Part shown: positions 42,203-58,790 of the stretch, in pieces | How positions within the stretch are numbered: position 1 is the stretch's first letter | Layout: the number at the start of each line of letters is the position of its first letter | NCBI GenBank assembly: GCA_900016875.1 | Contig: FCNR01000053.1 | Span: 1-64,000, forward strand | Origin: Eubacteriaceae bacterium CHKCI004 | GTDB lineage: Bacteria; Bacillota; Clostridia; Lachnospirales; Lachnospiraceae | Direction of reading: 5' to 3' | DNA: 64,000 nucleotides | Notes under the pieces: model-generated | Seen by the model: the letters and a program-made list of their open reading frames with translations, nothing else | Told to the model about the DNA's origin: nothing | The model's database searches: none | Made by a program: the position numbers and the translations under genes

Positions 42203-42441
42203 AAATGAAAAGATTGCCAAAGAAGGCAAGAAACAAGATAAAGGTATTTGTGCTGTTCCTTTTTCTGTCAATATGTCTGAAGCAGGCGGGGACGCCAGAG
42301 CTGTCCCTGACCCTGAAAAGTTTCCTCCACGTTATCCTTATCCTTGCCTGGCTGTTTGCCGGTCTTTATCTCCTGGGATTTATCGGACAGGGGAAAAAGA
42401 CCGGGGAAAGCCGGCAGGAAGGGAAAGATGACTTGTACTGA
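42199..42441 (+). CDS. Small membrane protein of unknown function (80 aa)
   Basis: Basic N-terminus (MKMKRLPKKARNKIK), then two hydrophobic segments (about 16-28 and 44-62), then a charged tail. The stop codon TGA is inside the palindrome at 42435-42451 (the last codon TAC and the stop form GTACTGA). No family recognised. Confidence 0.55.
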   Translation: MKMKRLPKKARNKIKVFVLFLFLSICLKQAGTPELSLTLKSFLHVILILAWLFAGLYLLGFIGQGKKTGESRQEGKDDLY

Positions 42442-42451
42442 AATTCAGTAC
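42435..42451. repeat. 17-bp palindrome, copy 1
   Basis: Exact GTACTGAAATTCAGTAC. It holds the stop codon of the 80-aa gene and lies 20 nt before the start of the next gene (42472). Confidence 0.98.
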
Positions 42452-42471
42452 GCCAAAAAGGAGAAGAAAAG

Positions 42472-42732
42472 ATGCATATCATCATCAAAGGTGTAGAGAC
42501 CATTGAGGAATATAAACAGTGTTATGCCCTGATGCATGGAATGGCAGATGAGTTCCGGAAAAAACATAACGGTTATCTGGATAGCTGGATACATGGGGAG
42601 ATCCACGATGTCTGGATGGATAAAGATGGGAACCTGTACCTTTCCTATGAAGATGGGTTTTCCGGTATGTTTGCAAAGAGAAAGAAAAGAGTTGAAAAAG
42701 GGTGGAGAAGGAGCGCGTACCTGTTGTTGTGA
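42472..42732 (+). CDS. Small ICE protein of unknown function (86 aa)
   Basis: A soluble 86-aa protein with AAGGAG upstream, directly after a palindrome. The central stretch SWIHGEIHDVWMDKDGNLYL suggests a small beta-hairpin domain, and the C-terminal RKKRVEKGWRRSAY is basic. No family recognised. Confidence 0.5.
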   Translation: MHIIIKGVETIEEYKQCYALMHGMADEFRKKHNGYLDSWIHGEIHDVWMDKDGNLYLSYEDGFSGMFAKRKKRVEKGWRRSAYLLL

Positions 42733-42833
42733 TGCAAGATACAGCAAAACAATGGGTATCTTCCTGTGGAATAATGGTTCCAGCGTTCGGAGAAGCCCTT
42801 GTATGAGACAAAAGAACAGTATCTTTCAATAGC

Positions 42834-42850
42834 GTACTGAATTTCAGTAC
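42834..42850. repeat. 17-bp palindrome, copy 2
   Basis: Exact GTACTGAATTTCAGTAC, 148 nt before the next start codon (42999) and followed by the structured leader. Confidence 0.98.
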
Positions 42851-42853
42851 AAC

Positions 42854-42960
42854 GCCCGCCTGCGGACAGGATATCCTGGGCCGTGGTCTGCAAAAGCACA
42901 GGCGGGCCTGTACACAGGGAACTGTGTACAACGTATACTTTCATATCAGGCGGGACGTCC
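42854..42960 (+). promoter_or_regulatory. Structured leader before the 228-aa gene
   Basis: GCCCGCCTG (42854-42862) can pair with CAGGCGGGC (42899-42907). Directly after comes a perfect GTACACAG-GGAA-CTGTGTAC hairpin (42910-42929) and a palindrome GGGACGTCCC (42951-42960), all before the ribosome-binding site of the gene at 42999. The dense structure suggests RNA-level control. Confidence 0.6.
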
Positions 42961-42998
42961 CTTTCCAGGATGTTCCCGTCACTAAAAAGGAGAAATAC

Positions 42999-43685
42999 AT
43001 GGAAAACAAATATACCTATCATTTTGAATTAAGCCAGGAACTACCTGGAGATATTCCATTGAAGCCGGTAGAAAAACTTACGTCAGAAAAACCGTGGTAT
43101 GGACATTCATACGGTGACCGGGTGGGACGGATCTATCTGGATGGCCGCAAAGAATCTTTTTTCGTTAAAGACCAGGAGCAGGGAGGTACCAAACTTTTTG
43201 ACCAGATGCTCGCAAAAAATGTGACGTATCCACATGTACATAGTATGTACGACAGAAAAACCGGAGAGACCTATGATTGTGAAGATCATTATATCCTACG
43301 GGATGTTGCCGGCCATTCCTCCCTGCAGCCTACACTCACAGACGATGCGCTGGATACCTGCATGAATGTAGGATTTACTTATCACTATGAGATCTTATTG
43401 GTCCTTGACATGGAATGGAAACGCTATATATCCCAGACGGTCCAGACACACGGGCCATTTACCTATGGGCTTTACGATATCATAACGTCCCTTGGAGATA
43501 TCATAGAAGAGTGGGCGGAAGCAGAGGAGAACGGATTCCGGAAAGATGAGGACGGAATCCATGCCCTTTTCTACAACCTGATAGGCGAAGAGATAGAAGA
43601 AAGTTTTCCTGCTACAGAGACCCTTTTACTGTATCTTAATTCTGTCCGGATATATGGAATGGAAAGGATGATAGATGAAAAATGA
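42999..43685 (+). CDS. ICE-conserved protein of unknown function (228 aa)
   Basis: A soluble 228-aa protein. The start is ATG 42999 with AAGGAG upstream. Recognisable stretches are HFELSQELPGDIPLKPVEKL at the start, GDRVGRIYLDGRKESFFVK, and an acidic helical C-terminus. No family recognised. Its last 4 nt overlap the sortase gene, so it is translationally coupled to it. Confidence 0.55.
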   Translation: MENKYTYHFELSQELPGDIPLKPVEKLTSEKPWYGHSYGDRVGRIYLDGRKESFFVKDQEQGGTKLFDQMLAKNVTYPHVHSMYDRKTGETYDCEDHYILRDVAGHSSLQPTLTDDALDTCMNVGFTYHYEILLVLDMEWKRYISQTVQTHGPFTYGLYDIITSLGDIIEEWAEAEENGFRKDEDGIHALFYNLIGEEIEESFPATETLLLYLNSVRIYGMERMIDEK

Positions 43686-44437
43686 ACATATTAAAACGGT
43701 TTCTGTTTTATCTGATGCTCATGGGATTGTTCGCAGCAGCCATGGCGTTTGGGACGTTAGCATTGCGTGATGCATTGCCTTTCATCAAAAGTGACTGGGA
43801 AGTACATAAGCTCCGGGAAGCAGTCAAAGGGACAGCAGAAGAGAACACTCTGGATGATGGCGTGACGATGCCGGATATCAAATGGGAAAAGCTGCAGGAA
43901 GAAAACCCGGATATCGTAGCGTGGATCACAGTGCCTGGAACAAAGATTGATTATCCTGTCCTGCAATGTTCAACATGGAATGAATATTTACACAAGGATC
44001 ATGAGGGAAACTACAGTTATCCCGGCTCGATCTTTATACAGCCCGGCGCCAGTTTTTCTGACCAGCACATCGTCATCTATGGCCACAACATGGCCAGCCG
44101 GTCCATGTTCGGCAGCCTGCATGATTACGAGGACGAAGATTTTGGGAGGGAACATCCGGATGTCTACATCTATGAACCGGGACGGACGATACATGCAAAG
44201 ATCTACAGCACCTATGACTGTAAGGACGCCAGTGAGACCTATATCACGGATTTTCAGACGCCGGAAGCCTGGCAGGACTGGCTTAACATGACTATCGAAG
44301 AAAATTATTACGATGTAGGGACTGCTATCCCTTCTGCGGGGGACCGGGTCATCACCCTGTCTACCTGTTCTACAGGGCGGAGTGCAGATTCCCGGTATGT
44401 CGTACACAGCAAGATAAAAAATATCAAAATGTACTGA
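43682..44437 (+). CDS. srtB: Class B sortase
   Basis: A 251-aa membrane-anchored transpeptidase. Residues 7-30 are the N-terminal anchor (FYLMLMGLFAAAMAFGTLAL). VPGTKIDYPVLQC is followed by the catalytic His in IYGHNMASRSMFGSL (about residue 122). VITLSTCSTGRSADSRYVV (about 223-242) carries the catalytic Cys and the Arg. Class B is inferred from the length and TLSTC motif. It is expected to attach the ICE surface proteins (58.8 kb and probably 52.5 kb) to peptidoglycan. Its TAC-TGA end forms half of palindrome copy 3. Confidence 0.92.
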   Translation: MNILKRFLFYLMLMGLFAAAMAFGTLALRDALPFIKSDWEVHKLREAVKGTAEENTLDDGVTMPDIKWEKLQEENPDIVAWITVPGTKIDYPVLQCSTWNEYLHKDHEGNYSYPGSIFIQPGASFSDQHIVIYGHNMASRSMFGSLHDYEDEDFGREHPDVYIYEPGRTIHAKIYSTYDCKDASETYITDFQTPEAWQDWLNMTIEENYYDVGTAIPSAGDRVITLSTCSTGRSADSRYVVHSKIKNIKMY

Positions 44438-44447
44438 ATCCCAGTAC
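44431..44447. repeat. 17-bp palindrome, copy 3 (degenerate)
   Basis: GTACTGAATCCCAGTAC, a variant in which TT of the right arm reads CC. It contains the sortase stop codon and lies 18 nt before the ssb start. Confidence 0.85.
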
Positions 44448-44465
44448 GAAGGAGGAGGAAATGTT

Positions 44466-44912
44466 ATGAACCAATCTATATTTATCGGACGGCTCACCCA
44501 TGAGCCGGAATTGCAGATGAAGGACAAAGCAGACAGCCAGACTTATTGGTGCCGTTTCCGAATCGCGGTAAACCGGGAATTTTCCCAGAAAGAAGAGACG
44601 GATTTCTTTAATTGTGTCACTTTTGGCGGAAAAGCAAGATACTTGACGTCTTACGCCAAAAAAGGCAGCCGTGTTGCTGTCTGCGGACGGATGCAGAGCC
44701 GGCAGTACGAAAGAAAAGATGGCACAAAAGGATACGCAGTGGAACTGTTTGTCACAGACCTGCAGGTCATTGACTATGTGGAAAAGGAAAAAAATGTGGA
44801 GTTGGATGAGAGGGATTATCAGCCGCCGATAGAGCAGCCACCGTTTGAAAATCAGCCGCCATCCCCGGATTATGGGATGCTGGATGGAGCCGGCCTTTAT
44901 GGAAGAAGATGA
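44466..44912 (+). CDS. ssb: Single-stranded DNA-binding protein
   Basis: A 148-aa OB-fold protein. IFIGRLTHEPELQ, FRIAVNREF, DFFNCVTFGGKA and KKGSRVAVCGRMQSRQYE are the family's conserved runs. The acidic, Pro-rich tail (PPIEQPPFENQPP) replaces the canonical C-terminal DDxIPF tip, so partner binding may differ from chromosomal SSB. GGAGGAGG lies upstream. It supports DNA replication or transfer of the element. Confidence 0.92.
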   Translation: MNQSIFIGRLTHEPELQMKDKADSQTYWCRFRIAVNREFSQKEETDFFNCVTFGGKARYLTSYAKKGSRVAVCGRMQSRQYERKDGTKGYAVELFVTDLQVIDYVEKEKNVELDERDYQPPIEQPPFENQPPSPDYGMLDGAGLYGRR

Positions 44913-44925
44913 AGGGAGAGGAAAT

Positions 44926-45906
44926 ATGCAATTGGATTATTTTTATGGTTCTGCCAGCGAACATTTCCGGTTTTATCAGATTCCAGCCCTTTTGTTGGAA
45001 GAAGACTGTTATCGGAAACTGCGGGATACATCTAAACTCCTGTATGGCGTCCTATTATCCCAGCTCTCCTTATCAAGAAAAAATGGGTGGATGGAACCGG
45101 AGACCGGGAGAATCTATATCCATTATAATCTGAGGAATCTTGCACAGTGCCTTGGACACAGCGCAAATACCATCACCCGCGCCATGGAAGAGTTATGTGA
45201 AGCCGGCCTGCTCCGGCGTCGCAGGAGGGGCCGGGGGCTGCCGGATATCCTGTATGTGATGGATTTTACAACTGCGAAAGCCAACAAGGAAAGCGACCTA
45301 AAAAAAGAGGAGACAGGGGAAGAAGAGCCGCAGGCAGAAGGGCAGAAAATAGACAGTCGGCAGGAAACTGAGGATGTCAATGGTATAGGATCAGAGAAAC
45401 CGGCCAGTACCGGACCGGAAATGTCCCTGCAAAAAGGCGATCATACAGAAAAAACAGATAAAAATACCGAGATATCTGTCACAGAGATATACCGAGATAT
45501 CCTGGAGAAGCAGATCAGCTATTCTTATCTACTAAAAAATCATCCTCTTGATGCGGAACTTATCAATGAGATCCTGTTTGTTATGGTGGATGCTTTTACG
45601 ACACAGCGAAAATACCTGCGGGTCAATGGGGATAACCGGGAAGTCAACGAGGTCCAGAACCGACTGAAACGGATTGATGCCAGCCATATCGAATACATCC
45701 TTCGATGCATGAAAGAAAGCACGAAAAAGATCGTGAACCCGCCGCTATTTTTACTGACAGCCCTGTATAACGCCCCGGCTACCATCAATACGTACTATAA
45801 TGCCCTGGCAGCCCATGATATGTCCCGTGGTGTCTTTGCAGGTTATCCAGATAATGAATCCCCCACCGCCGGGAACAACTGGGAAGACTCAGATAAAGGG
45901 GGATAA
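44926..45906 (+). CDS. RepA_N-type replication initiator-like protein
   Basis: A 326-aa protein. Residues about 5-110 (FRFYQIPALLLEEDCYRKLR, YGVLLSQLSLSRKNG, NLAQCLGHSANTITRAMEEL) are a RepA_N winged helix. The C-terminal part (about 200-300) is a helical domain shared by initiators of conjugative elements, with a low-complexity acidic linker between. It follows ssb by 13 nt and is followed by four iteron-like palindromes, as in plasmids. This supports autonomous replication of the excised element. Confidence 0.82.
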   Translation: MQLDYFYGSASEHFRFYQIPALLLEEDCYRKLRDTSKLLYGVLLSQLSLSRKNGWMEPETGRIYIHYNLRNLAQCLGHSANTITRAMEELCEAGLLRRRRRGRGLPDILYVMDFTTAKANKESDLKKEETGEEEPQAEGQKIDSRQETEDVNGIGSEKPASTGPEMSLQKGDHTEKTDKNTEISVTEIYRDILEKQISYSYLLKNHPLDAELINEILFVMVDAFTTQRKYLRVNGDNREVNEVQNRLKRIDASHIEYILRCMKESTKKIVNPPLFLLTALYNAPATINTYYNALAAHDMSRGVFAGYPDNESPTAGNNWEDSDKGG

Positions 45907-45915
45907 AATACATAT

Positions 45916-46052
45916 TTAAGAATCGCAAAAGTTGCGATTCTTAAACAGAAAGATAAGGTGGAAAGCCTATCAAACGGCTTTTAGAATCGTTAAACTTGTG
46001 ATTCAAGAATCGTCAAAGTTGCGATTTTAGAATCGCAGGAATGACGATTCTA
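45916..46052. repeat. Iteron-like palindrome array downstream of the initiator gene
   Basis: Four related units begin AGAATCG and end CGATTCT or a variant: 45916-45944 (a perfect 13-bp inverted repeat around AAG), 45983-46005, 46006-46029 and 46028-46052. The last three are contiguous. The core GAATCG...CGATTC recurs in every unit. Iterons next to a RepA_N gene fit a replication origin. A transcription-termination role is an alternative. Confidence 0.75.
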
Positions 46053-46166
46053 AAGAAATAGATACAAAAGAAATAAATATATTTATATATATAATCTATC
46101 CATCCATCCGTGGTAATACAGGATGCAGTCGATGGATGGGTGGAAAAACAAACAGAGGAGGATGCT

Positions 46167-47024: not shown

Positions 47025-47025
47025 T

Positions 47026-47042
47026 GTACTGAATTTCAGTAC
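47026..47042. repeat. 17-bp palindrome, copy 4
   Basis: Exact GTACTGAATTTCAGTAC. It begins 1 nt after the AraC stop codon and lies 46 nt beyond the end of the convergent minus-strand small gene. Confidence 0.98.
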
Positions 47043-47087
47043 AAAAAAGAGACGTTCCCCGGCACGGGAGCGCCCCTTTAAAAAGTA

Positions 47088-47249
47088 TCAGTCTTTTCCG
47101 GAACCTTCCAGCATGTCCTCCATGGACAACGGCGGCAATCCTTCCTCTTCCCGGATTTCATTACCGATCTGAAGGATGGATTCTTTCATGAACCTATCAA
47201 ACTCTTCGACTACCTGCTGTTTTTCTTCCGGAGATAAATCTTTATCCAT
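47088..47249 (-). CDS. Small acidic protein of unknown function (53 aa)
   Basis: A 53-aa soluble protein from ATG 47249 with GGAGG upstream on the minus strand. It is Glu/Asp rich (MDKDLSPEEKQQVVEEFDRF). Such short acidic ICE proteins are often antirestriction or toxin-antitoxin-like, but there is no firm evidence here. It is one of only three minus-strand genes in the ICE part of the window and is bracketed by palindromes 47026 and 47312. Confidence 0.5.
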   Translation of the reverse strand: MDKDLSPEEKQQVVEEFDRFMKESILQIGNEIREEEGLPPLSMEDMLEGSGKD

Positions 47250-47311
47250 ACGCAGACCTCCTGACTTTTGAGATAAGTATAGCAGACAGGGGAGAAGATA
47301 GCAAACCATTT

Positions 47312-47328
47312 GTACTGAAATTCAGTAC
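47312..47328. repeat. 17-bp palindrome, copy 5
   Basis: Exact GTACTGAAATTCAGTAC, 62 nt before the start of the minus-strand small gene and 14 nt before the start of the plus-strand gene at 47343. Confidence 0.98.
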
Positions 47329-47342
47329 GGAAAGGATGGATT

Positions 47343-47519
47343 ATGAATAGAGTAGCCATGTCTTATCAGTTAAAAATACGGGACATCCTGAATAAATTAC
47401 AGAAAGATGAAATCATAATCACAGACCCACAGGATGAATACAGGTCAACAAAAAAGCCTGCTGATACCAGAAAAGGCAGAGAAAATGTCGTCCGGCGTTC
47501 ACCCTGCCGGAAAGGATGA
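47343..47519 (+). CDS. Small basic protein of unknown function (58 aa)
   Basis: From ATG 47343, with GGAAAGGAT upstream, comes a 58-aa protein starting MNRVAMSYQLKIRDILNKLQ and ending in a Lys/Arg-rich tail. It lies 6 nt before the next start codon, directly after a palindrome. No family recognised. Confidence 0.4.
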   Translation: MNRVAMSYQLKIRDILNKLQKDEIIITDPQDEYRSTKKPADTRKGRENVVRRSPCRKG

Positions 47520-47525
47520 GTGATT

Positions 47526-47870
47526 ATGAAAACAATCTTATCAGTTATAGTAGTAATATTGATAGTAATTATTTTACTCTATTTATACCTGAAAGGGAAC
47601 AGTATGACATTCATAAGTACAAAAAAGAAAGATGGAAAATATACTTACCGTTTCAGGCTCACACTTATGAATGGGATGGTCATTGAACATCTCCTGTATT
47701 CGGATTATCCCAATTATCATGGAAATGTGATCGGATATCACCGTTTTTTCCGCACCCGGAATAAAACGCTCTATTTTACTGTAAGTGAGAAAAACTATCA
47801 GATTCCTCTTAACACGATTCTTTCTTCGGAAATGGTCAGGATAGACCGGCAGGAAGACAATGCGTACTGA
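47526..47870 (+). CDS. Small membrane-anchored protein of unknown function (114 aa)
   Basis: Residues 2-22 form a hydrophobic anchor (ILSVIVVILIVIILLYLYL). The rest is a beta-rich soluble domain (KYTYRFRLTLMNGMVIEHLL). Its last codon and stop (TAC-TGA) fall inside palindrome copy 6. The start is ATG 47526, 9 nt after AAAGGA. No family recognised. Confidence 0.5.
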   Translation: MKTILSVIVVILIVIILLYLYLKGNSMTFISTKKKDGKYTYRFRLTLMNGMVIEHLLYSDYPNYHGNVIGYHRFFRTRNKTLYFTVSEKNYQIPLNTILSSEMVRIDRQEDNAY

Positions 47871-47880
47871 AATTCAGTAC
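47864..47880. repeat. 17-bp palindrome, copy 6
   Basis: Exact GTACTGAAATTCAGTAC. It contains the stop codon of the 114-aa gene and lies 14 nt before the start of the kinase-like gene (47895). Confidence 0.98.
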
Positions 47881-47894
47881 ATAAGGAGCGTATC

Positions 47895-48392
47895 ATGCAG
47901 ACAATATATATCATGGTTGGTGTTCCCGGAGCCGGGAAGACAACCTTTGCAAAAAAATATCTGTCCCATGCCGTTTATCTAGGGACAGACAACATCCGGA
48001 AAGAACTGTATGGACGGGAACTGACCCTACGGGGGAGGAAAAGAGTGCGCCGTATCCTTTATGACCGGATGAAGGAGGCACTATCTACAGGAAATGATAT
48101 TGTCATCGACTGCACCAATATCACCCGCCGCCGGCGGAAAGCGCTGCTGGATAAACTGCCATCAGGGATCCGGGCGGCAGCAATCTATCTGGATACTCCG
48201 CTTATGACAGCCTTGAAAAATAACCGGCGGCGAAAACGCCATGTCCCGATGATCGGGATATGTATGATGTATCAAACGCTGTCGGAGCCATCAGAAACGG
48301 AAGGGTTTGCAAAAATTTATAAAATACATGGAGATATGGAAGAAAAACATATCATGAAACAACTTTACAGGTATAGAAAAGAAACGTACTGA
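47895..48392 (+). CDS. P-loop kinase-like protein (polynucleotide-kinase/zeta-like)
   Basis: A 165-aa protein with IYIMVGVPGAGKTTFAKKYL (Walker A, residues 4-23), YLGTDNIRKELYG and VIDCTNITRRRRKAL, the pattern of small P-loop nucleic-acid or nucleotide kinases and of zeta-toxin relatives. No PezA-like antitoxin gene is adjacent, so a toxin role is unsupported. Its stop codon lies within palindrome copy 7. Convergent with the Cro/CI-type regulator. Confidence 0.75.
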   Translation: MQTIYIMVGVPGAGKTTFAKKYLSHAVYLGTDNIRKELYGRELTLRGRKRVRRILYDRMKEALSTGNDIVIDCTNITRRRRKALLDKLPSGIRAAAIYLDTPLMTALKNNRRRKRHVPMIGICMMYQTLSEPSETEGFAKIYKIHGDMEEKHIMKQLYRYRKETY

Positions 48393-48402
48393 ATTTCAGT
48401 AC
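48386..48402. repeat. 17-bp palindrome, copy 7
   Basis: Exact GTACTGAATTTCAGTAC. It contains the kinase stop codon and lies 11 nt beyond the 3' end of the minus-strand regulator gene. Confidence 0.98.
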
Positions 48403-48413
48403 GCCATGAAAGG

Positions 48414-48617
48414 TTAATCGGTATCTCTTACATATTTCATGATATCAGATACCTCACAATCGAGGATGGCGCAGAGCTGGTTGATGGTATTGACGGTGAC
48501 GCTCTTTCCGTACTTCATGGCATAATAAGTAGAACGGGAAAAGCCCCGTTTTTCAAGCTCATAAGAACTGATATGCTTTTTCTTCATAGTCTCAAAGAGT
48601 GGTTCGTAACTTATCAT
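48414..48617 (-). CDS. Cro/CI-type HTH regulator (67 aa)
   Basis: A 67-aa single-domain HTH protein of the YozG-like kind. ISSYELEKRGFSRSTYYAMK and KSVTVNTINQLCAILDCEVS supply helices 2-3 and the C-terminal helix. It is divergent from the BlaI-type gene, and a degenerate copy of the element's palindrome (48652-48668) lies over its promoter, so it is the best candidate in the window for the protein that reads that palindrome (inference). Confidence 0.85.
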   Translation of the reverse strand: MISYEPLFETMKKKHISSYELEKRGFSRSTYYAMKYGKSVTVNTINQLCAILDCEVSDIMKYVRDTD

Positions 48618-48651
48618 GCCTGCACCTCATACAGTTTTATTATATGAGTAT

Positions 48652-48668
48652 GTACAGAAATTCGGTAT
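48652..48668. promoter_or_regulatory. Degenerate palindrome in the regulator's promoter
   Basis: GTACAGAAATTCGGTAT matches the element palindrome at 14 of 17 positions. On the minus strand it lies just before a perfect -10 TATAAT (48644 to 48639) of the regulator gene, so it would overlap the -35 spacer region. It is flanked by a GTATGTAC direct repeat. Confidence 0.6.
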
Positions 48669-48752
48669 GTACGAATATTGATACATAGGATATCAATAAG
48701 ATGGTAATAAGGGATATTGAAACGATACGTCTATGATATTCCTGTTTGGATA

Positions 48753-49630: not shown

Positions 49631-49647
49631 GTACTGAAATTCAGTAC
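49631..49647. repeat. 17-bp palindrome, copy 8
   Basis: Exact GTACTGAAATTCAGTAC, 126 nt upstream of the minus-strand regulator start and 22 nt before the duplicated promoter block. Confidence 0.98.
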
Positions 49648-49659
49648 GCAGGGAACACA

Positions 49660-49735
49660 CAAAAAAAGTGGAACTAAGTGGGACTTGAAGGTAAAAAATG
49701 AGGATGGTACAGTATAATCAGGAATAGTATGGGAC
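49660..49735 (+). promoter_or_regulatory. Duplicated promoter block, copy A
   Basis: TGGAACTAAGTGGGACTTGA (from 49669) is followed 44 nt from its start by TATAATCAG (49713-49721). The same block recurs at 51013-51085 with identical spacing, each ending about 65 nt before a palindrome and an SD. The conserved block likely binds an activator. Confidence 0.65.
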
Positions 49736-49779: not shown

Positions 49780-49796
49780 GTACTGAATTTCAGTAC
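49780..49796. repeat. 17-bp palindrome, copy 9
   Basis: Exact GTACTGAATTTCAGTAC, 24 nt before the start of the membrane-protein gene at 49821. Confidence 0.98.
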
Positions 49797-49820: not shown

Positions 49821-50264
49821 ATGACAATGAAAAAAGCAGGAACGATTCTTGGAGGTTTTGGGTCGGGAAGTGTGCTGGCATTTTATCTATATATTCTTTG
49901 CCAGAACTGGCTCTTGTCTTCACAGGGGAGATTACAGGAGATTATCAAAGTTGAACAAATCTCTTTGGATATGGCGTCCATTTATTTTTTCAGTATTATC
50001 CTGCCAGCAGGGATTGTGTGTTTATTTCTGGCACCAATCTTTATTGTGAGAAATAGAAAAACAGGGATAAAACTCAGCTTCTTACTCATGTTCATTGTGG
50101 CAGTTGCTGAAGGAACCATTGTTACAGCAGCCAGTGGAAAGATATCTTTGATTTATACAATAGTTGTATGGATTTTCAGCGTATACTGCTGTTTTCTCAT
50201 CCTGGAAGGAATACATGCAATCTGCTGTCAGGTGGGAAATGTACTGAAATTCAGTACAAAGTAG
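49821..50264 (+). CDS. Membrane protein of unknown function (147 aa)
   Basis: Four hydrophobic segments span the protein (near 8-27, 53-75, 83-105 and 112-135). The start at 49821 has GGAGGGG upstream. The last codons read through palindrome copy 10 (VLKFSTK), so the repeat has become coding at its 3' end. No family recognised. Confidence 0.6.
   Translation: MTMKKAGTILGGFGSGSVLAFYLYILCQNWLLSSQGRLQEIIKVEQISLDMASIYFFSIILPAGIVCLFLAPIFIVRNRKTGIKLSFLLMFIVAVAEGTIVTAASGKISLIYTIVVWIFSVYCCFLILEGIHAICCQVGNVLKFSTK
50241..50257. repeat. 17-bp palindrome, copy 10
   Basis: Exact GTACTGAAATTCAGTAC, here read in frame as the last codons of the 147-aa membrane protein, and 30 nt before the start of the gene at 50288. 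Confidence 0.98.
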
Positions 50265-50287: not shown

Positions 50288-50839
50288 ATGGATGGAAATA
50301 AAAAAACGGTATATTGTTATGACTGTAGTAGAGATATAACAAATGATTATAAAATTGGAACTGATAAAGGAGTGATATGTGTAGACTGCCTGCATAATGA
50401 TACGGTACATAAAGGAGAGAAATATGTGAGTTTTCTTGAGTCAACGAGTAATCTCACGATTGCGGGAATAATTTTAGCTGTAATTTTAATTATTATTTCC
50501 AGAGTGCCTGCTGTAAGTCAAACAACAGAAAAAGTAAGTTGTGTTGTGGTAATGATATTAAGTGTAGGTTTCTTTTTTGGTGTGAAAACAATATTTAAGC
50601 GGATATCTAAATGGCCTGTGATTATTATATTTTCAATCTTTTTCTTTATTTTGTTTTTGAGAGTTCTTTTTCCTATAACTACATGGATAGGGTGTATTGT
50701 TATGATAAGAGATTGGATCAAGGTGAAAAAATTGGAAAAAGAATATCTTAGTGCAATAGATTTTATGGCCAGGGTTCTTTCAGATATGAGGAAGCATACA
50801 TATCAAAATTTAGAGAATAGGCTAAAAAAGTGGATTTAA
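50288..50839 (+). CDS. Zinc-ribbon membrane protein of unknown function (183 aa)
   Basis: The N-terminal 45 residues hold CYDC and, 21 residues later, CVDCLH, a zinc-ribbon-like pair (KTVYCYDCSRDITNDYKIG). Two or three hydrophobic segments follow (about 55-75, 85-105 and 112-145), then a charged C-terminus. The start is ATG 50288 with AAAGGGG upstream. No family recognised. Confidence 0.6.
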   Translation: MDGNKKTVYCYDCSRDITNDYKIGTDKGVICVDCLHNDTVHKGEKYVSFLESTSNLTIAGIILAVILIIISRVPAVSQTTEKVSCVVVMILSVGFFFGVKTIFKRISKWPVIIIFSIFFFILFLRVLFPITTWIGCIVMIRDWIKVKKLEKEYLSAIDFMARVLSDMRKHTYQNLENRLKKWI

Positions 50840-50857
50840 GTGGGATTGGAAAATCGC

Positions 50858-50874
50858 GTACTGAAATTCAGTAC
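50858..50874. repeat. 17-bp palindrome, copy 11
   Basis: Exact GTACTGAAATTCAGTAC, 18 nt after the stop codon of the zinc-ribbon gene and before the second promoter block. Confidence 0.98.
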
Positions 50875-51012: not shown

Positions 51013-51085
51013 CAAAAAAGGGTGGAACTAAGTGGGACTTGAAGGTCAAAATCAGAGCTGTTACAATATAATCAGAAAAAGAATG
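51013..51085 (+). promoter_or_regulatory. Duplicated promoter block, copy B
   Basis: TGGAACTAAGTGGGACTTGA (from 51023) and TATAATCAG (51067-51075), the same spacing as copy A. A partial third copy (TGGATTTAAGTGGGATTGG) lies at 50831-50849. Confidence 0.65.
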
Positions 51086-51131
51086 GCCAGAGGAAAATGG
51101 TAATCCTGCTGGGAGTAAAAATAAGTGGTAT

Positions 51132-51148
51132 GTACTGAATTTCAGTAC
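51132..51148. repeat. 17-bp palindrome, copy 12
   Basis: Exact GTACTGAATTTCAGTAC, 65 nt after the TATAAT of promoter block B. With copy 13 it makes the only closely spaced pair (16 nt apart). Confidence 0.98.
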
Positions 51149-51164: not shown

Positions 51165-51181
51165 GTACTGAATTTCAGTAC
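51165..51181. repeat. 17-bp palindrome, copy 13
   Basis: Exact GTACTGAATTTCAGTAC, 22 nt before the start of the Ig-like-protein gene at 51204. Confidence 0.98.
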
Positions 51182-51203: not shown

Positions 51204-52280
51204 ATGAAGAATTGGAAATCTGCGATACTAAAATCCTGTATGCTGCTGGCGGCTGTCTTCCTGATCGGCGCGGCAGTCCCGGCTAGTGCAAAGACGGCAC
51301 CGAAGCTGTCCAGTAAAAAAATCACCTTGAAAGTCGGACAGAAAAAGAAACTGAAAGTGAAGAATGTCAAAAAGAAAAAGATTAAATGGTCTTCCAAAAA
51401 CAAGGCCATTGCAACTGTAAATAAGAAAGGCAAGGTAGTAGGTAAGAAAAAAGGCAAAACTACGATTATTGCCAAAGTCAGTAAAAAGAAGCTGAAATGT
51501 AAGGTCGTTGTGAAAAAAGCCGATACTAAGAAAAAATCAAATGGAAAAAATAAAGGTAACAATAAGATCAGTAAAGCTGTGGAAAAAGAATTGCCATCTG
51601 CTAAACAGTACCGTGTTTTGAATGGTCCGGAAACAATGGCAGTAGGAAAACCTGCTAATTTATTTGATTATGTTTACTATGCAGGTAAACGAATTAACGC
51701 ACCGTCTAATGAAGCAAAAGTAAAAGGTTACAAATGGACTAGTTCCAACAATTCAATTGTATCTATTGATAAGTATGGTGTTGCCACGCCCCAAAAAGAA
51801 GGTAAGGTTAATCTTTCCTTTAAATATTTAGATCGTTCCGGAGAATGGAGAGAATCAAATACTCTCAAGGCTGAAGTTGTCAATGTAGGTGATGTTTCCT
51901 ACACAGTGTCTTTTGGATTGAATAGGGATTTATTAAATATGGATTCTAAATATCTTGAACTCAATTTACCTAGATATAATTCTCCAGATGCATTTAACTA
52001 TATAAATGTTACAGTAACTAACAACTCTGATACGAAAATTTTTGTAAGTAAAAAGTTCGGTATACAGACTGGAGGTTGGGATGATTGGCCAACTAGAGAT
52101 AATCAGGATGTGGAAATTCCTGCAAAATCTTCTAAAACTATTTGGTATGGATTTACTGAAAAAGGTGGGGTAGAATTACAAAAAGATATTTATAGAACCT
52201 CTTTAACCTATTCCATCAATGGTAAAGATGCACTCATTTATTATTATCCTGAAACTGGTATTTATGAAGTATCAAAATAA
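51204..52280 (+). CDS. Secreted Ig-like (BIG2) protein
   Basis: A 358-aa secreted protein. Residues 1-29 are a signal peptide (SCMLLAAVFLIGAAVPASA). Residues about 35-110 form a Lys-rich BIG2 bacterial Ig-like domain (SSKKITLKVGQKKKLKVKNV, then ATVNKKGKVVGKKKGKTTII). The middle is basic and low complexity. The C-terminal 200 residues hold a second BIG2-like unit (YKWTSSNNSIVSIDKYGVA) and a further beta-rich region. No sorting signal is seen, so release or loose wall binding is expected. Its SD is right after two palindromes. Confidence 0.8.
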   Translation: MKNWKSAILKSCMLLAAVFLIGAAVPASAKTAPKLSSKKITLKVGQKKKLKVKNVKKKKIKWSSKNKAIATVNKKGKVVGKKKGKTTIIAKVSKKKLKCKVVVKKADTKKKSNGKNKGNNKISKAVEKELPSAKQYRVLNGPETMAVGKPANLFDYVYYAGKRINAPSNEAKVKGYKWTSSNNSIVSIDKYGVATPQKEGKVNLSFKYLDRSGEWRESNTLKAEVVNVGDVSYTVSFGLNRDLLNMDSKYLELNLPRYNSPDAFNYINVTVTNNSDTKIFVSKKFGIQTGGWDDWPTRDNQDVEIPAKSSKTIWYGFTEKGGVELQKDIYRTSLTYSINGKDALIYYYPETGIYEVSK

Positions 52281-52540: not shown

Positions 52541-55500
52541 ATGAGTAGATTAAAAACAAAGTTAAAACGGATGTTGTCTTTCCTTACAACATTCCTTTTA
52601 ACTATATCAAGTCTAGCCGCGACTATAACGCCAGTGAGTGTATATGCGGCAGATACACTAAAGGGAAATGTAGAAGTTACCACTTTGAAAGATGCCACAG
52701 TCAAGGGCTATGGTGCTTTCGATTTAGAATCCAATGCCTCCCAGTACAGTGTTGAGCATTCAAAAAACCTTACGAAAGCTTCCGGCAATGACTGGATCTG
52801 GCAACCGGGAGATCAGGGAGCAACCGGAGCTATTGGAGAAGAAAGATTAGGCAATGCTTATATTGCGGAACTGAAAGATGACAACTATTGGATTCAGTAC
52901 AATGGTATTGAACTTAAAGAAGGGACCACTATAATGGGGACTTACGATGTTCGTGTGGTTTTCAGTAATCCAAAAGGAGCTATCAGCGGTGCTTATGGTA
53001 AAGATATTGCCGTGTTCGACGGACAGCTTGGCGCAGTTCGTTTTCGTGGTTACAAAAGCTTAGATTGTGAAATCTTTGTATATGAACATGGTACAAAAAA
53101 TCTGGTGACTGGCGATGATGGAAAAATGCATCTGCGTTTTATCGATATTGACTGTCATCAGGCTATTGAGGTTTTAACACCTAGCCGTGTTGATTGGGCG
53201 TATAAACGAAACAAGTTGTCCTGGATGGGTCAAAATAAGTGTGATGAGATCGGCGCTGAGTATGGCAATACCGTATGGTACAATGGACCAACCGATGTGC
53301 GTGATGACTGGATTCAGGCAAAAGTAGGTTCCGCTAATTACAAGACAGCCGCCCGCCATACCTTTACATTAGGTTTCACCCCAGGCTCAAATGCGGAGAA
53401 TACCTTTAAGGTACGATATTACTCTGGAGGTGTGGATGAGATTGGAACACAGAAAAATGGTGCCTTCTTCTCCTTTGATGGAAACTTAGACCTGGATGTG
53501 GAAGACGACCCGTTCTTTTCCGGCAGTGTATCCAAACAGGTTAACGGGACGACGGATGCTGTCCTGTCCAATGCGAAGGAAAGCTTCACCTATACGTTAA
53601 ATGCTGTCATTGACGCCGGTTCCACAGGCGGAACACAGTTTACTGTGACCGATACTCTGGATAGTGTTTTACAGCCGACTGCCATTACGGCGATCACCAA
53701 AGACGGCGCGGATGTATCCGGAAACTTTGATTACAGTATCAATGGCCAGACGGTAACGGTGAGTGCGAAATCCTCGTATCTGGCGACAAACCCGGCCGGG
53801 ACATTTTCTGTCAATATAGCCACGAAAATTAAGGATGGAGCGAACCTCGCGCCATATTATGACGCGGCAAGGAATTACGCTGTCATCAATAATAAGTGTA
53901 CGCTGACGACCAACGATGGAGAGGATGCTGTGAGTACGGATTCCAATACCGTTACGGTCCGCGTCCCGCTGGCAGAGCTGACCCTGGATAAGGTGGCGGA
54001 TGCCTATGAGTATAAGGTGGGCGATACGGTTACGTATACGATTTCCGTAAAAAATGTAACGGCCAATTCCACCGCTTACGATGTGGTCATGACCGACGCC
54101 ATCCCGTCAGATCTGCAGGTGACTGGCGTGACGCCGAGTGCCGGCTCCGGCTCTGTGGATGGCCAGAACGTCCGTGTTACAGGGGTAAACCTGGGAGCCA
54201 ACCAGACACTGACCGTAAAAGTGACTTGTAAGGCACTGGAATCAGGCAACACCAAAGAACTTTACAATCAAGCCAGTTCAACATGTTGGAATATCAAGAA
54301 CCCATCCGGCCATGCTGATGATGACGCAGAAACTTATATCAACAGCGCGGTCCTGACGGTGGATAAGACGGTCGATCAGTATGAGTATGAGATTGGCGAT
54401 ACTGCCACCTTCACGGTAAAAATAGCTAACACAAGTACAGGTACGGCTAATAACGTTGTCATCGCGGATGATGTGCCAGAGGGCATGACTTTAGACTATG
54501 ATTCCGTGGAAATTTCCGGCCTGCCGGAAACCGTTGTTGTGCCGGTGGCAGGGACAAAAGACCCGACCAATGCCTTAAACCCGGAGTACCGCAATGAGAC
54601 AGAAACCCGGAATGTCACCGCTGACAAGGCAAAGAGCGGGGATAATGGCTGGAAGTATACCATCAACCACTTCCCGGCCGGAGCTACAGCGACCATCACC
54701 TATACAGCCACAGCCAATGAGAAAGGCAACGGCAAGGAAGCCCAGAACATCGTGACCGTGACCGCCGATAATGCGCTAAAGGCGCAGGATGAGGCGGAGT
54801 ATTATATCAATACGGCACAGCTTACCATCGACAAATCTTATATCAATCCGTATAAAGCGGAGAAAAACGATAACCGATGCGATAATGAATACAGAATCTA
54901 CGAGGAAGAGACAGGATTCGAGAAAGTCCAGTATCAGGTCGTCGTCACAAGCGCTGGCGCTGATGGCACCGTGGCAAAGGATGTGGTCATTGATGACCTG
55001 ACCCTGCCGGATGGCCTGGTATTAAATTATGAGGATATCGTCATCACAGAGACTGCTGCGGATGGGACAACCATTACCTTTGAGAAAGCGTCCGGTGGAA
55101 ACGGCAAGACGATACAGTATAAGATTGCCGGCACCGAAGACGAGACAAATAAATTGAATCCGGAGCTTTATGATGAAACGGAGGAACGTACCCCGGTCAT
55201 CACCATTGAGCAGTCCGGGAACGGTTTTATCGTCAAAGATACCTACCTGGAAAAAGGCGCGTCTCTGACCATCAAATATGACGCCAACGCCCTGGAGAAT
55301 GACGAAGTGGACGTTAATGGTACAGAGATCACCAATACAGCAAAGGCGACCGCGGCAAACGTGGAGAAAGAGGAAGACGGCAGCTATAAAGTGGTAAAAG
55401 ATGCTACCACTGTTTACATCAATTCCCCTCGTCTGCAGATCGTGAAGGAAGCCGATTCTGATGAGTATGAAATTGGGGAGAATGTCTCCTATACCATCGA

Positions 55501-58500
55501 CGTGATCAACACCCATAAGGGAACCATCGCCCGGAACCTTGTCTTTACCGATAAATTGGAAACCGAAGGCGTGGAATTTTTGACCGGCACGATCGCCCTG
55601 TATGATACCAACGGCTATGAGCTGCGGGAAGGTACGGACCTGGCCGGGGAAGACGATTACACAAAGACTGCCAAAGTCGATGAGTTTATTCTGCGTTCTG
55701 ATAAGCACCTTGTAGTGGATGGCAATTATGACCTCTATGACCTGGCAAATGGCAAGAACCCGGAGGAACAGGGAACCTGGAATCCGCCGTATGTGAATGT
55801 CACCAGCGAGACAAAAATGACCATCAAGTATGACATGAAGATCACGGATAAAGACCTGGCAGGCAAGGAAATCCTGAATACCGCGACCGCCGTATCCGAT
55901 GAAGCTTTAAAGGTCACAACCGATGAGACGGTCATCCCGGACGGCCCGAACCCGAAGGTAGAAAAAGAGATCGACAATGCTTCCCCGGTAGTCGGAAAAG
56001 ACGTGACGTTCACCCTGACCTTTACGAATCCAAACCAGAATACTACAGCAGAAGACATACAGATCACGGATTCCCTGGATAAGACCGGGATGATTACCAT
56101 TTATGAAGAATCTATGTCCGTGAAGCTGAATAACGAGGATGTCACCGATCAGGTACAGATCACCTACAATGAGACGATGGATGGATTTGACATTGATACC
56201 GGCATTACTCTGACCGAAGATGATACCCTCGTAGTAACCTATCGGGCAAAGGTGCTTCCGGAAGCCGGGGACGTGGAATTGATGAATACCGCCGGTGTAA
56301 GTTGCAGCAATAACCCGGAATGGAAGTATGACAGTGTACCGTTTATCCCGGAGAAAAAGGTGCCGAAACTGGCGATTGAAAAAACGTCAGATAAAGAAGT
56401 CTATCAGGTAGGGGACACTGGGCATTATACCGTTACCGTTACCCAGACAACAGAAGACATGACTGCAAAGCAGGTCGTGATCAAAGACGCCCTGCAGGTG
56501 GAAGGCGCAAAGATCCAAGTGGACACCATTAAGCTGTATTTCAATGATGTGGAGATCACGCCGGCAAAAATCACATCCGATGTGAACGGCTATACCATTG
56601 AAACTGGAAAAGACCTGACCGATAAAGACAGCCTGAAAGTCACCTATGATGTCTACTTTGAGTCTGGCCGTCTCAATGGACAGACCGTGCCGAACACAGC
56701 AAAGGCAAAGGCCGAAAATACGGAAACAGAAACCGACCGGGAAGTACCGCTCACTCCAGTGGGAGATGGCCTGGAAGCCAAAAAAGAGGCGGACCCGGCA
56801 GGCGGCACGGTGGTGAAGGCTGGTGATACCATCCAGTATACGATCACTGTTAAGAACATTTCCGATCAGGAAAAGACGAACGTCCTCATCCGTGACGCGA
56901 TCCCGGAACTGACGACCTATGTAGAGGGAAGTGGCGGGGAACTGTTCACGATCAACGAACAGCCATATGTCCGCTTTGTGATCCCATCTATTGCGGCAGG
57001 CGAAGCGCAGCAGGTTTCTTTCTCTGTGACCGTCAATGAAGAAGCGACGGAAGATGATGTCATCCGCAATACTGCACAGGTCTATGAACCGGTGGCAGAA
57101 GAAATCGGGGAAGATGGAACGATTCCGGAAGAAATCTGGAACAGCGACAAGTTTGAGGACACCAACACCATCACCCATCCGCTGGACGACTGGGTCATCA
57201 CTGACCATGAAGTCGATGTGGTATCCCCGGCATTGGCCATTGAAAAAACGTCAGATAAAGACGTCTATCAGGTAGGAGAGACCGGGCACTATACGGTCAC
57301 TGTTACCCAGACCAAAGAAGACCTTACGGCGAAACAGGTAGTAGTCAAAGATGACCTGCAGGTAGATGGCGCAGAAATGCAGCCGGATACCATCAAAGTA
57401 TATTTTAACGATACGGAGATCACGCCGGTATCCGTGACCGCAGACGCCAAAGGCTATTTAATCGATACCGGCATGGACCTTACAGACAGAGACGTTATTA
57501 AAGTCACTTACGATGTCGTATTTGTATCGGAAAGTCTGATGGGCGGCACGGTGCCAAATACGGCAAAAGCGAAGGCTGATAACGCCTATGCAGAAACGGA
57601 CCATGAAGTCCCGCTGACACCTGTAGGGGATGGCCTTGAAGCGAAAAAAGAAGCCGATCCGGTGAGCGGCACCGTCGTAGAAGCCGGAGAGACGATCCAG
57701 TATACGATCACTGTAAAAAATACCTCTGATAAAGAGAAGACGAATGTCCTTGTCCGTGACGCCATCCCGGAAAATACTACTTACGTGGAAGGAAGTGGCG
57801 GAGAACTGTTTACGATTGATGAACAGCCATATGTCCGCTTCGTGATCCCGTCCATCGCTGCCGGGGAAGAACAGAACGTTTCCTTCTCCGTGACTGTCAA
57901 TGAAGATGTGGATAAGGATGAGGTTATCAAAAACGTGGCACAGGTTTATGAACCGACAGAGGATGAAGTAGGGGTGGACGGCACAGTACCGGAAGAAATC
58001 TGGAACAGTGATAAATTCCACGATACCAACATGACCCTGCATCCACTGGATAACTGGGTCGTGACCGAACATGAAGTTGGCGTGGGAACTCCGGATGTGT
58101 CCATCGAAAAGAAAGCCGACGCCACCGTATATTCTGTGGGTGAGACCATCCAGTACACGATCCTGGTGAGCCAGAATACCGAAGGGGCCACAGCAACGAA
58201 CGCCATCGTGGAAGATAAAGACCTGACAGACGGTGTGGATATTGATTACGCATCCATTCAGGTAGACGGCGCAGCCGTACCGGAAAAAGATGAAGTGGAA
58301 ATGGACGCGGATACAATCCACATGGTACGCACAGACGGAGGATTCAAGGTGGTTTACCCAACTCTGTCCGGACAGTCGGAAATTACATTTACCGCAACCA
58401 TTACCAGTGAAGACCTGACCGGCCAGAAGATCCATAACACGGCGACTGTCATCACCGACCAGACACCGGAAAAAGAAGCGACTGTCACTGTGAAGGTTCC

Positions 58501-58702
58501 AAAGTCCACACTGGAAAAGGTAGTGGAAAAAACATTTCATCCAGACGGAGCTTCGTCTAAAGACAATGATGAAGGAACGAGTGGCCCGAAAGGGGCAAAG
58601 ACCGGCGTTACAAGCTATGCCGGATGGTTTGCGCTGGCGGCAGCCGCCTTTGGCGGGACCGGCATCTTCCTCCTCCGGAGAAGACGGAAAAAAATGAAAT
58701 AA
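52541..58702 (+). CDS. Giant repeat adhesin with cell-wall sorting-like C-terminus
   Basis: A 2053-aa surface protein. Residues 1-35 are a signal peptide ending PVSVYAA. About 40-330 form an N-terminal beta-rich adhesin domain. From about 340 on come fimbrial-type and DUF11/Sdr-like repeats, marked by LTLDKVADAYEYKVGD (480), LTVDKTVDQYEYEIGD (605), LQIVKEADSDEYEIGE (964) and LAIEKTSDKEVYQVGD (1278). Two 288-aa blocks (about 1277-1563, 1564-1850) are near-identical. The end has GAKTGV followed by a hydrophobic stretch and LRRRRKKMK, the plan of a sortase signal with a non-standard motif. It is likely anchored by the ICE class B sortase. Confidence 0.85.
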   Translation: MSRLKTKLKRMLSFLTTFLLTISSLAATITPVSVYAADTLKGNVEVTTLKDATVKGYGAFDLESNASQYSVEHSKNLTKASGNDWIWQPGDQGATGAIGEERLGNAYIAELKDDNYWIQYNGIELKEGTTIMGTYDVRVVFSNPKGAISGAYGKDIAVFDGQLGAVRFRGYKSLDCEIFVYEHGTKNLVTGDDGKMHLRFIDIDCHQAIEVLTPSRVDWAYKRNKLSWMGQNKCDEIGAEYGNTVWYNGPTDVRDDWIQAKVGSANYKTAARHTFTLGFTPGSNAENTFKVRYYSGGVDEIGTQKNGAFFSFDGNLDLDVEDDPFFSGSVSKQVNGTTDAVLSNAKESFTYTLNAVIDAGSTGGTQFTVTDTLDSVLQPTAITAITKDGADVSGNFDYSINGQTVTVSAKSSYLATNPAGTFSVNIATKIKDGANLAPYYDAARNYAVINNKCTLTTNDGEDAVSTDSNTVTVRVPLAELTLDKVADAYEYKVGDTVTYTISVKNVTANSTAYDVVMTDAIPSDLQVTGVTPSAGSGSVDGQNVRVTGVNLGANQTLTVKVTCKALESGNTKELYNQASSTCWNIKNPSGHADDDAETYINSAVLTVDKTVDQYEYEIGDTATFTVKIANTSTGTANNVVIADDVPEGMTLDYDSVEISGLPETVVVPVAGTKDPTNALNPEYRNETETRNVTADKAKSGDNGWKYTINHFPAGATATITYTATANEKGNGKEAQNIVTVTADNALKAQDEAEYYINTAQLTIDKSYINPYKAEKNDNRCDNEYRIYEEETGFEKVQYQVVVTSAGADGTVAKDVVIDDLTLPDGLVLNYEDIVITETAADGTTITFEKASGGNGKTIQYKIAGTEDETNKLNPELYDETEERTPVITIEQSGNGFIVKDTYLEKGASLTIKYDANALENDEVDVNGTEITNTAKATAANVEKEEDGSYKVVKDATTVYINSPRLQIVKEADSDEYEIGENVSYTIDVINTHKGTIARNLVFTDKLETEGVEFLTGTIALYDTNGYELREGTDLAGEDDYTKTAKVDEFILRSDKHLVVDGNYDLYDLANGKNPEEQGTWNPPYVNVTSETKMTIKYDMKITDKDLAGKEILNTATAVSDEALKVTTDETVIPDGPNPKVEKEIDNASPVVGKDVTFTLTFTNPNQNTTAEDIQITDSLDKTGMITIYEESMSVKLNNEDVTDQVQITYNETMDGFDIDTGITLTEDDTLVVTYRAKVLPEAGDVELMNTAGVSCSNNPEWKYDSVPFIPEKKVPKLAIEKTSDKEVYQVGDTGHYTVTVTQTTEDMTAKQVVIKDALQVEGAKIQVDTIKLYFNDVEITPAKITSDVNGYTIETGKDLTDKDSLKVTYDVYFESGRLNGQTVPNTAKAKAENTETETDREVPLTPVGDGLEAKKEADPAGGTVVKAGDTIQYTITVKNISDQEKTNVLIRDAIPELTTYVEGSGGELFTINEQPYVRFVIPSIAAGEAQQVSFSVTVNEEATEDDVIRNTAQVYEPVAEEIGEDGTIPEEIWNSDKFEDTNTITHPLDDWVITDHEVDVVSPALAIEKTSDKDVYQVGETGHYTVTVTQTKEDLTAKQVVVKDDLQVDGAEMQPDTIKVYFNDTEITPVSVTADAKGYLIDTGMDLTDRDVIKVTYDVVFVSESLMGGTVPNTAKAKADNAYAETDHEVPLTPVGDGLEAKKEADPVSGTVVEAGETIQYTITVKNTSDKEKTNVLVRDAIPENTTYVEGSGGELFTIDEQPYVRFVIPSIAAGEEQNVSFSVTVNEDVDKDEVIKNVAQVYEPTEDEVGVDGTVPEEIWNSDKFHDTNMTLHPLDNWVVTEHEVGVGTPDVSIEKKADATVYSVGETIQYTILVSQNTEGATATNAIVEDKDLTDGVDIDYASIQVDGAAVPEKDEVEMDADTIHMVRTDGGFKVVYPTLSGQSEITFTATITSEDLTGQKIHNTATVITDQTPEKEATVTVKVPKSTLEKVVEKTFHPDGASSKDNDEGTSGPKGAKTGVTSYAGWFALAAAAFGGTGIFLLRRRRKKMK

Positions 58703-58773
58703 ATAAGGGACAATACAGCAGGAAAGTAAGGGCCTGCTTTTTTTGTACCCAAAAACCGGAAAGGAGGCAGCCC

Positions 58774-58790
58774 GTACTGAATTTCAGTAC
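58774..58790. repeat. 17-bp palindrome, copy 14 (inside a 29-bp perfect palindrome)
   Basis: Exact GTACTGAATTTCAGTAC, extended by CAGCCC on the left and GGGCTG on the right to a perfect 29-bp palindrome (58768-58796). It lies between the AAGGAGG at 58761-58767 and the start codon at 58807. Confidence 0.98.

Follow-up and report, generated by a model that had tools for sequence, protein, structure and literature searches.

The locus considered here raises a simple question: what is the function of a 17-bp palindrome that recurs at the gene junctions of a mobile element? The element, an integrative and conjugative element (ICE), lies on contig FCNR01000053.1 (C44 below) of Eubacteriaceae bacterium CHKCI004, a member of the Lachnospiraceae. 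The window analysed comprises the first 64,000 nucleotides of this contig, so that window and contig coordinates coincide. An initial annotation of the window had proposed a shared binding site, a ParB-type centromere array, an RNA-processing or stabilising hairpin, or a mobile junction unit. The palindrome shows dyad symmetry at the level of DNA, is confined to the element, lies at gene borders, comes in element-specific versions and co-occurs in part with ParB. On the evidence of sequence comparisons, it is probably a parS-like recognition site of the element's own ParB, present in about 25 copies.

A repeated palindrome confined to one element

Scanning the window with the 17-mer recovered 13 exact copies, together with variants at 44431 (two mismatches) and 48652 (three mismatches), where 0.11 matches are expected by chance (100 shuffles, largest value 1). 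The initial annotation had listed 14 copies, 13 exact and one two-base variant; each of them lies where it was placed, and the copy at 48652 is a fifteenth that was overlooked. In the whole genome (3.99 Mb, 86 contigs), all 21 exact copies are found on C44, from 42435 to 82321, eight of them past the window end, and a reversed-pattern control gave no match. With one-base variants at C44 68255 and 76270, the element holds 25 sites. Four of the copies beyond the window belong to a 77-78-bp tandem unit (C44:68099-68361), which looks like a local duplication and resembles a centromere array, presumably in the manner of sopC of the F plasmid.

The contig contains exactly two copies of a perfect 16-bp direct repeat, GAAACCATGAATTTCT, at 38478-38493 and at C44:82671-82686, which are likely attL and attR. 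Taken as attachment sites, the two repeats delimit an element of 44,209 bp (C44:38478-82686), inside which the window ends at 64 kb. No tyrosine or serine recombinase was noticed between the repeats, no search having been aimed at recombinases. The reported confinement of the motif to 42.4-58.8 kb therefore arose because the window end truncated the element. It is correct that copies are absent from 38.5-42.4 kb and also from 58.8-68.1 kb, which includes part of the mating-channel genes, but beyond the window copies adjoin the relaxase and TraG genes (72321 and 80060). An equal density of the motif in backbone genes, which would have spoken against a link to the element, is not seen, as the rest of the genome contains no exact copy.

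Placement along the element was assessed with a hand-made gene list. At most eight coding bases are found in 22 of the 25 sites, compared with 2.6 expected at random, and 12 of the 25 lie 8-40 nt before a start codon, compared with 0.8 expected; when only non-coding sites are considered, 10 of 22 lie at this distance compared with 3.7 for random non-coding positions (p 0.002). Five sites include the stop codon of the preceding gene, three are wholly coding, and the junctions that carry copies are tandem, divergent and convergent. The sites lie mostly where coding does not constrain the DNA. The early description of most copies as lying 14-30 nt before a start codon is accurate for eight of 14 (20, 18, 14, 14, 24, 30, 22 and 16 nt), and the placement at borders recurs in related elements, so that no loss of positional bias is seen there.

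A dyad probably read on DNA

The repeated unit spans 19 bp and forms a dyad, Y-GTAC(Y)G(R)AWT(Y)C(R)GTAC-R. The base just outside the 17-mer, a position unused in the search, is a pyrimidine on the left and a purine on the right in all 179 half-sites that could be read, and beyond this one flanking base no sequence is conserved around the sites of a 90-site set. This set, drawn from 15 regions, also served for a comparison of strands: 81 sites were read on the sense strand and nine had no strand, after three of 93 rows had been dropped as degenerate or chance matches (G141_C50 42002, G354 23943 and G308 9118; G-numbers label the compared genomes) and the near-identical G397_C94 had been excluded. 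The strand was assigned from a simple gene caller, and the sites are not independent, being copies within one element or in related elements.

If a hairpin in the transcript were functional, changes in one arm would give G.U rather than A.C pairs on the sense strand. One-sided changes in the core were unbiased, with 22 G.U and 16 A.C (p 0.42), and the flanking pair gave 16 of each; the transcribed strand thus shows no preference for the pairing expected of a cis-acting RNA hairpin, a result that points to a dimeric DNA-binding protein more than to a hairpin in RNA. The dyad also runs through the would-be loop. A8/T10 is present in 78 of the 81 sites, a figure partly built in because the symmetric search pattern demanded A8/T10 with at most one mismatch overall; it is also present in all 27 members from G354 and G308, which were recovered with the central five positions unconstrained. 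At the centre itself, 47 of the 81 sites have A, 33 have T and one has C. In G308, pair 3/15 is an unpaired A.A or T.T in 10 of 17 rows, and this makes the stem weaker, at about -3.2 instead of -7.9 kcal/mol. These features of the palindrome fit a dimer that would read two half-sites on DNA.

Versions of the motif in related elements

Among 84,980 species, represented by one genome each, the exact motif matched 59 stretches. Twelve of these fall in five records of elements that bear the motif, namely Eubacterium sp. An11 (two contigs), Candidatus Anaerobutyricum avicola, A. hallii DSM 3353 (G400; the assembly also labelled G599) and Eubacterium sp. SUG271, and the remaining 47 are single matches. 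In a sample of 397 genomes of the family, the exact motif was found in two and a degenerate form, GTRCYGAAWTTCRGYAC, in seven. A de novo count of palindromes that was blind to the motif ranked it as the leading repeated palindrome in the window element (G000_C44), G397_C94, G400_C107 (5), G354 (13), G308 (14) and G141_C50 (5), second in G165 (4) and third in G399 (4); it was not among the palindromes listed for G141_C1, G319, G303, G150 or the second ICE of the same genome (G000_C64, below C64).

Most elements carry one version of the site. Version T (TACTGA/TCAGTA) characterises the window element, G397_C94 and G399, with T5/A13 in 24 of 24 sites in the window element and four of four in G399. 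Version C (TACCGR/YCGGTA) characterises G354, G308, G057, G141 and G165, with C5/G13 in 13 of 13 sites in G354, 15 of 16 in G308 (16 sites in the final set), seven of seven in G141 and four of four in G165. A. hallii is mixed (seven T, five C and two others, n=14), and two of the contigs are partial, that of G399 being 28 kb with four sites and that of G057 3.8 kb with one.

Diverged elements can share an occupied junction. Before the immunoglobulin-like (Ig-like) gene, the distance from the site to the aligned gene position is 144-145 nt in the window element, G354, G398 and C64; the first three have an intact copy, that of G354 with symmetric changes in both arms, and the copy in C64 is broken. 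The window element, G400 and G354 each have a site at the junction that precedes the DUF3801 gene.

ParB as the candidate binder

Both partition proteins are encoded on the element. The parA gene (39449..40168, plus strand) specifies a Walker-type partition ATPase (PF13614 AAA_31, 5e-35; CbiA, 7e-17), and parB (40181..41533, plus strand), which specifies the candidate binder of the palindrome, matches PF02195 ParB_N above cut-off (2e-7). The motif is present in the window element and in four of four relatives whose ParB is 54-62% identical to the window ParB over the aligned part (tblastn, 242-442 aa): G399 (54%), G057 (59%), G354 (62%) and G308 (57%). In the family sample, ParB (E<=1e-25) occurs in six genomes and the degenerate motif in seven, and both occur in four (hypergeometric 5e-7; 2e-5 without the own genome). 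Searches among 196 genomes of the class found this ParB in the own genome only, and those among 135 relatives of G354 found it in G354 and G057 only; no relative was found in viral_contigs with either a single or an alignment query. In a genus sample of 24 genomes, ParB (E<=1e-40) is present in G000, G598 and G604, and perfect 19-mers occur in these three, in G599 (15), G597 (three; the same assembly as G398) and G319 (one), with one-mismatch matches only in seven further genomes.

When gene contents are compared, ParA and ParB are above all what the motif-rich elements have in common. Between G308 and the window element, ParA (52%), ParB (57%) and the single-stranded DNA-binding protein SSB are alike, the ArdC-like and DUF5688 proteins weakly so, and TraG is 24% identical. 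Since the mating genes of G308 differ, the motif goes with ParAB and not with the mating genes. Sister ICEs that combine related mating genes with another ParB have few copies (one to four), some of them decayed. C64 shares with the window element a relaxase that is 71% identical and an HTH_26 protein that is 88% identical, and its ParB, which is 43% like that of G398, has no match to the window ParB; it has two degraded copies only, each at a junction where the window element also has a site; at one of the two, G354 carries a symmetric version. G319 (ParB 28% like the window's) has one copy, inside TraG. G398 (24%) has three exact copies and one variant, adjoining genes that are among its most window-like (VirB4-type ATPase, 95%).

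Further points lie closer to the parAB genes themselves. In both G399 and G354, parA is preceded by a site at a distance of 17 nt. A faecal record of 5.1 kb (MT838556.1), found by the ParB sequence alone (40%), contains a perfect 19-mer inside parA, where 4e-5 are expected, and a second palindrome with G..C flanks. ParB residues 172-173, which we take from other ParBs to lie within the recognition helix, read RA in two T-version elements and K[ST] in three C-version elements, with residues 169-171 and 174-178 invariant in the same five proteins. The proposals of a shared binding site and of a ParB-type centromere array are supported by the dyad without strand preference, the symmetric changes in both arms and the co-occurrence with ParB.

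Several observations weigh against ParB as the binder. Arrays are present in G400, G141 and G165, where no close ParB was detected. G400 has 15 zero-mismatch 19-mers and four ParB_N proteins, none of them close, and its motif contig begins inside RepA, where parAB sits in G399; the arrays of G141 and G165 lie at or near contig ends, with one ParB_N protein per whole genome. Since the motif contigs of all three end at or near the arrays or RepA, a close parB may be on missing sequence. G303 (ParB 39%) and G150 (32%) lack the motif in 39 and 15 kb, and elements with another ParB do keep exact copies, three in G398 and one in G319. In the window element no copy lies near parA, the nearest being 0.9 kb beyond parB, and G057 and G308 have no site before parA. 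The relaxase, found in four genomes of the family sample, also overlaps the seven motif genomes in three (1e-5), so that the family sample alone does not single out ParB, and the correlation at residues 172-173 rests on five proteins. Pfam calls no separate helix-turn-helix (HTH) domain in ParB, and NCBIfam matches are below cut-off. The match to a solved structure is weak (7bnk, 4e-4, residues 33-116 only), and the AlphaFold model was poor (mean predicted local distance difference test score 55, predicted template modelling score 0.31, two sequences) and was not used.

Other explanations

The alternative that survives best, possible though on balance unlikely, is that the sites serve as operators for another repressor encoded on the element, of the Cro/C1 HTH type, which would silence the element at many places as SPBRE/MrpR in prophage SPbeta or the stoperators of mycobacteriophages do. 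The DNA-dyad signature and the border placement suit any dimeric repressor, and such a protein would account for G400, G141 and G165. An XRE-type protein (74452-74880) has a homologue in the motif-rich G354 and G400 and none in C64, G319, G398 and G397_C9 (blastp 1e-4), and the G141 sites lie among genes of the same HTH superfamily, as judged from an iterated search that also reaches G308. However, none of the HTH genes was found throughout the motif-rich elements, and the XRE-type protein has no blastp homologue in G308, where the iterated matches represent a broad HTH family; it is conserved at just 33-43%, compared with 54-62% for ParB. The HTH_26 protein (48414-48617) was considered as a binder and rejected, being 88-89% conserved in C64 and G398, both of which are without a dense array.

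An RNA hairpin at gene borders, acting in mRNA processing, stability or translation start, is improbable. As had been noted early on, RNA of this sequence can form the predicted 7-bp stem and 3-nt loop (-6.4 kcal/mol), but so could RNA from any such palindrome; the proximity to start codons and the stop codons inside five sites would suit this explanation. Set against these are the unbiased changes on the sense strand, the palindromy through the loop and the mismatched pair 3/15 of G308. Copies also occur at convergent junctions (47026 and 48386) and within coding sequence, above all in relatives, and no Rfam match was found in 38-60 kb.

More improbable still is a mobile or recombination unit, MITE-like (a miniature inverted-repeat transposable element) or a dif-like module border, that would mark gene cassettes. 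Copies flank the accessory genes at 47-51 kb and some contain the preceding stop codon, as this explanation would have it, but nothing is conserved beyond one flanking base, save in the 77-78-bp tandem array outside the window, and elements that have diverged still carry a site at the same junction, with symmetric base changes, a pattern that suits old sites maintained by selection better than it does recent insertions. Intrinsic terminators are scarcely credible: isolated look-alikes in G403 are terminator-like (same core, G..C extension, T-rich tail in at least two of three) and four of 14 scanned sites have a terminator-like match on the minus strand (44431, 47864, 48386 and 49631), among which 48386, just downstream of the minus-strand HTH_26 gene, could end that transcript, but the sites of the elements are never G..C-flanked, and the 14 of 25 sites scanned (42.0-52.6 kb) gave no plus-strand match, even though this strand encodes nearly all genes, so that a GC-rich stem followed by a sense-strand T tract is not found, with 48386 as a possible minus-strand exception.

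Comparison with known systems

Plasmid R55 of the IncC group has 14 palindromic ParB sites over its backbone, most of them intergenic, four in open reading frames (ORFs) and one at the parA promoter; the core is fully conserved, and the less conserved flanks matter for binding (PMC10954446). Binding of ParB was shown there by electrophoretic mobility shift assay on three sites, and SGI1 borrows two sites (PMC10954446). R55 and the window element are alike in that scattered, mostly intergenic palindromes are found in both. They differ in that the sites of R55, a gammaproteobacterial plasmid, have a 14-bp core in a 22-bp repeat of other sequence, whereas the Lachnospiraceae element has a 19-bp dyad with an odd centre, about 25 copies and a 77-78-bp tandem array. 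On RK2, the ParB-family protein KorB acts from 12 scattered binding sites, both in partition and in silencing the genes for replication and transfer; its site OB differs from the present dyad in being 16 bp, and KorB works with KorA at promoters (PMC11790492).

Repeated elements of other kinds were also compared. SPBRE in prophage SPbeta is a repeated intergenic element bound by MrpR and was recognised long before its binder (PMC10516654). It resembles the palindrome in being repeated, intergenic and restricted to one mobile element, and differs in that MrpR is a repressor with a recombinase fold and that the motif is 15 bp long and lies in promoter regions (PMC10516654). The stoperators of Cluster A mycobacteriophages likewise form many repressor sites across an element; they are asymmetric and bound by a monomer, and the binder also terminates elongation (PMC9283540). 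The start-associated sequences of Cluster K mycobacteriophages are asymmetric 13-mers, typically in one orientation and 3-7 nt before a start codon, that contain the ribosome-binding sequence (PMC3203893). Like the palindrome, they are short, linked to starts and confined to part of a genome, and some contain the preceding stop codon; the palindrome is instead strand-neutral and lies upstream of the ribosome-binding sequence, 14-30 nt before starts or unrelated to them. Identity with these sequences was rejected, as they are asymmetric and have a Shine-Dalgarno core (PMC3203893), and the present motif is symmetric. Among the matches listed, the literature found holds no description of the motif or of the element, most subscription papers being outside the reach of the search.

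The individual sites and other features of the element

The sites of the window, given here without a strand, are exact unless noted. The first (42435..42451) contains the stop codon of 42199-42441 and lies 20 nt before the start at 42472, and the second (42834..42850) is intergenic. The two-base variant (44431..44447) contains the sortase stop codon and lies 18 nt before the SSB start. The fourth (47026..47042) occupies the convergent junction after the AraC-type gene and the fifth (47312..47328) a divergent junction, 14 nt before the start at 47343. The sixth (47864..47880) contains the stop codon of 47526-47870 and is 14 nt before the start at 47895; the seventh (48386..48402), at a convergent junction, contains the stop codon of 47895-48392, and on the minus strand a T-rich tail follows it. 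The three-base variant (48652..48668) is 34 nt before the minus-strand HTH_26 gene. The ninth (49631..49647) is at a divergent junction, the tenth (49780..49796) lies 24 nt before the start at 49821, the eleventh (50241..50257) falls within the last codons of 49821-50264, 30 nt before the start at 50288, and the twelfth (50858..50874) is intergenic. The thirteenth (51132..51148) is 33 bp from the fourteenth (51165..51181), which lies 22 nt before the start at 51204. The fifteenth (58774..58790), 16 nt before the start at 58807, occupies a junction that is occupied too in G354 and G398 and decayed in C64. Beyond the window, an IS30-like transposase gene, named by eye, lies at the right end (C44:81371-82426) and has an exact copy in its coding sequence.

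Three blocks like GTGGAACTAAGTGGGACTTGAA are found at 49661-49732, 50812-50851 and 51015-51086, with a TATAAT-like sequence after two of the three and a copy of the palindrome near each; they may represent a co-regulated promoter. A consensus promoter scan of 42.0-52.6 kb gave 26 promoters, with 24.7 in shuffles, and so no excess. In the neighbourhood of parAB, an HTH_38 protein is found in the window (38607-39424 region), L149 and G303, and a 202-aa protein in the window, L149, G303, G354 and G057 and also in G398 and C64; these genes accompany parAB in varying order, which suggests a partition/control block.

Pfam identifies among the other genes of the element a sortase, SSB, RepA_N/DUF6017, an AraC-type regulator, Cro/C1-type HTH proteins and a BlaI-type repressor; a TrbL-like protein, PrgI, an ATPase of the TraG type at the VirB4 position and a CHAP-domain protein; and further MobC, the relaxase, ArdC-like, DUF5688, DUF3801 and TraG/VirD4. 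Four imperfect inverted repeats around AGAATCG..CGATTCT (45914-46054) directly follow the RepA_N/DUF6017 gene and are possibly replication-origin iterons. The ORF 52541-58702 encodes a repetitive protein of 2053 aa, with repeats 864 bp apart (56363-56662 and 57227-57526, 74% identity). The ICE of G319 (L097 about 10224-10410; G319:C1 about 2160224-2160410) has five TGTTCC..GGAACA copies, ~42 bp apart, near the relaxase accessory genes, possibly related to the origin of transfer (oriT) or a protein-binding array of its own.

A probable partition system in a conjugative element

Elements that reside in the chromosome have no obvious need of a centromere. Comparison with related elements suggests a layout of scattered ParB sites so far known from large plasmids. 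According to the model that we favour, a ParB dimer would dock on each 19-bp dyad, with its two YGTACYGAAW half-sites, and would then load as a clamp dependent on cytidine triphosphate (CTP). Together with ParA, it would ensure that the copies segregate when the element is excised or replicating. Through the copies near start codons, including that 17 nt before parA in two relatives, ParB would probably also dampen its own operon and its neighbours, a proposal modelled on KorB and on the ParB of IncC plasmids. Binding, clamp loading, segregation and repression by ParB are inferred.

One may speculate further that ParB is an element-wide silencer, although we regard this as distinctly unlikely. 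According to this speculation, clamps at about 25 mostly border sites would damp transcription within operons, and the one site version of each element would define a partition-based immunity group in which partition, repression and the exclusion of relatives are combined. A swap of parAB would then leave the old sites to decay, as C64 appears to show.

The two versions of the site and the two residue differences in ParB make both binding specificity and the incompatibility of elements directly testable. If the palindrome is indeed bound by ParB, this dense parS-like array would make partition proteins part of the life cycle of a conjugative element of gut Lachnospiraceae, and ParB would probably also be part of the gene control of the element, as it is on IncC and IncP plasmids.

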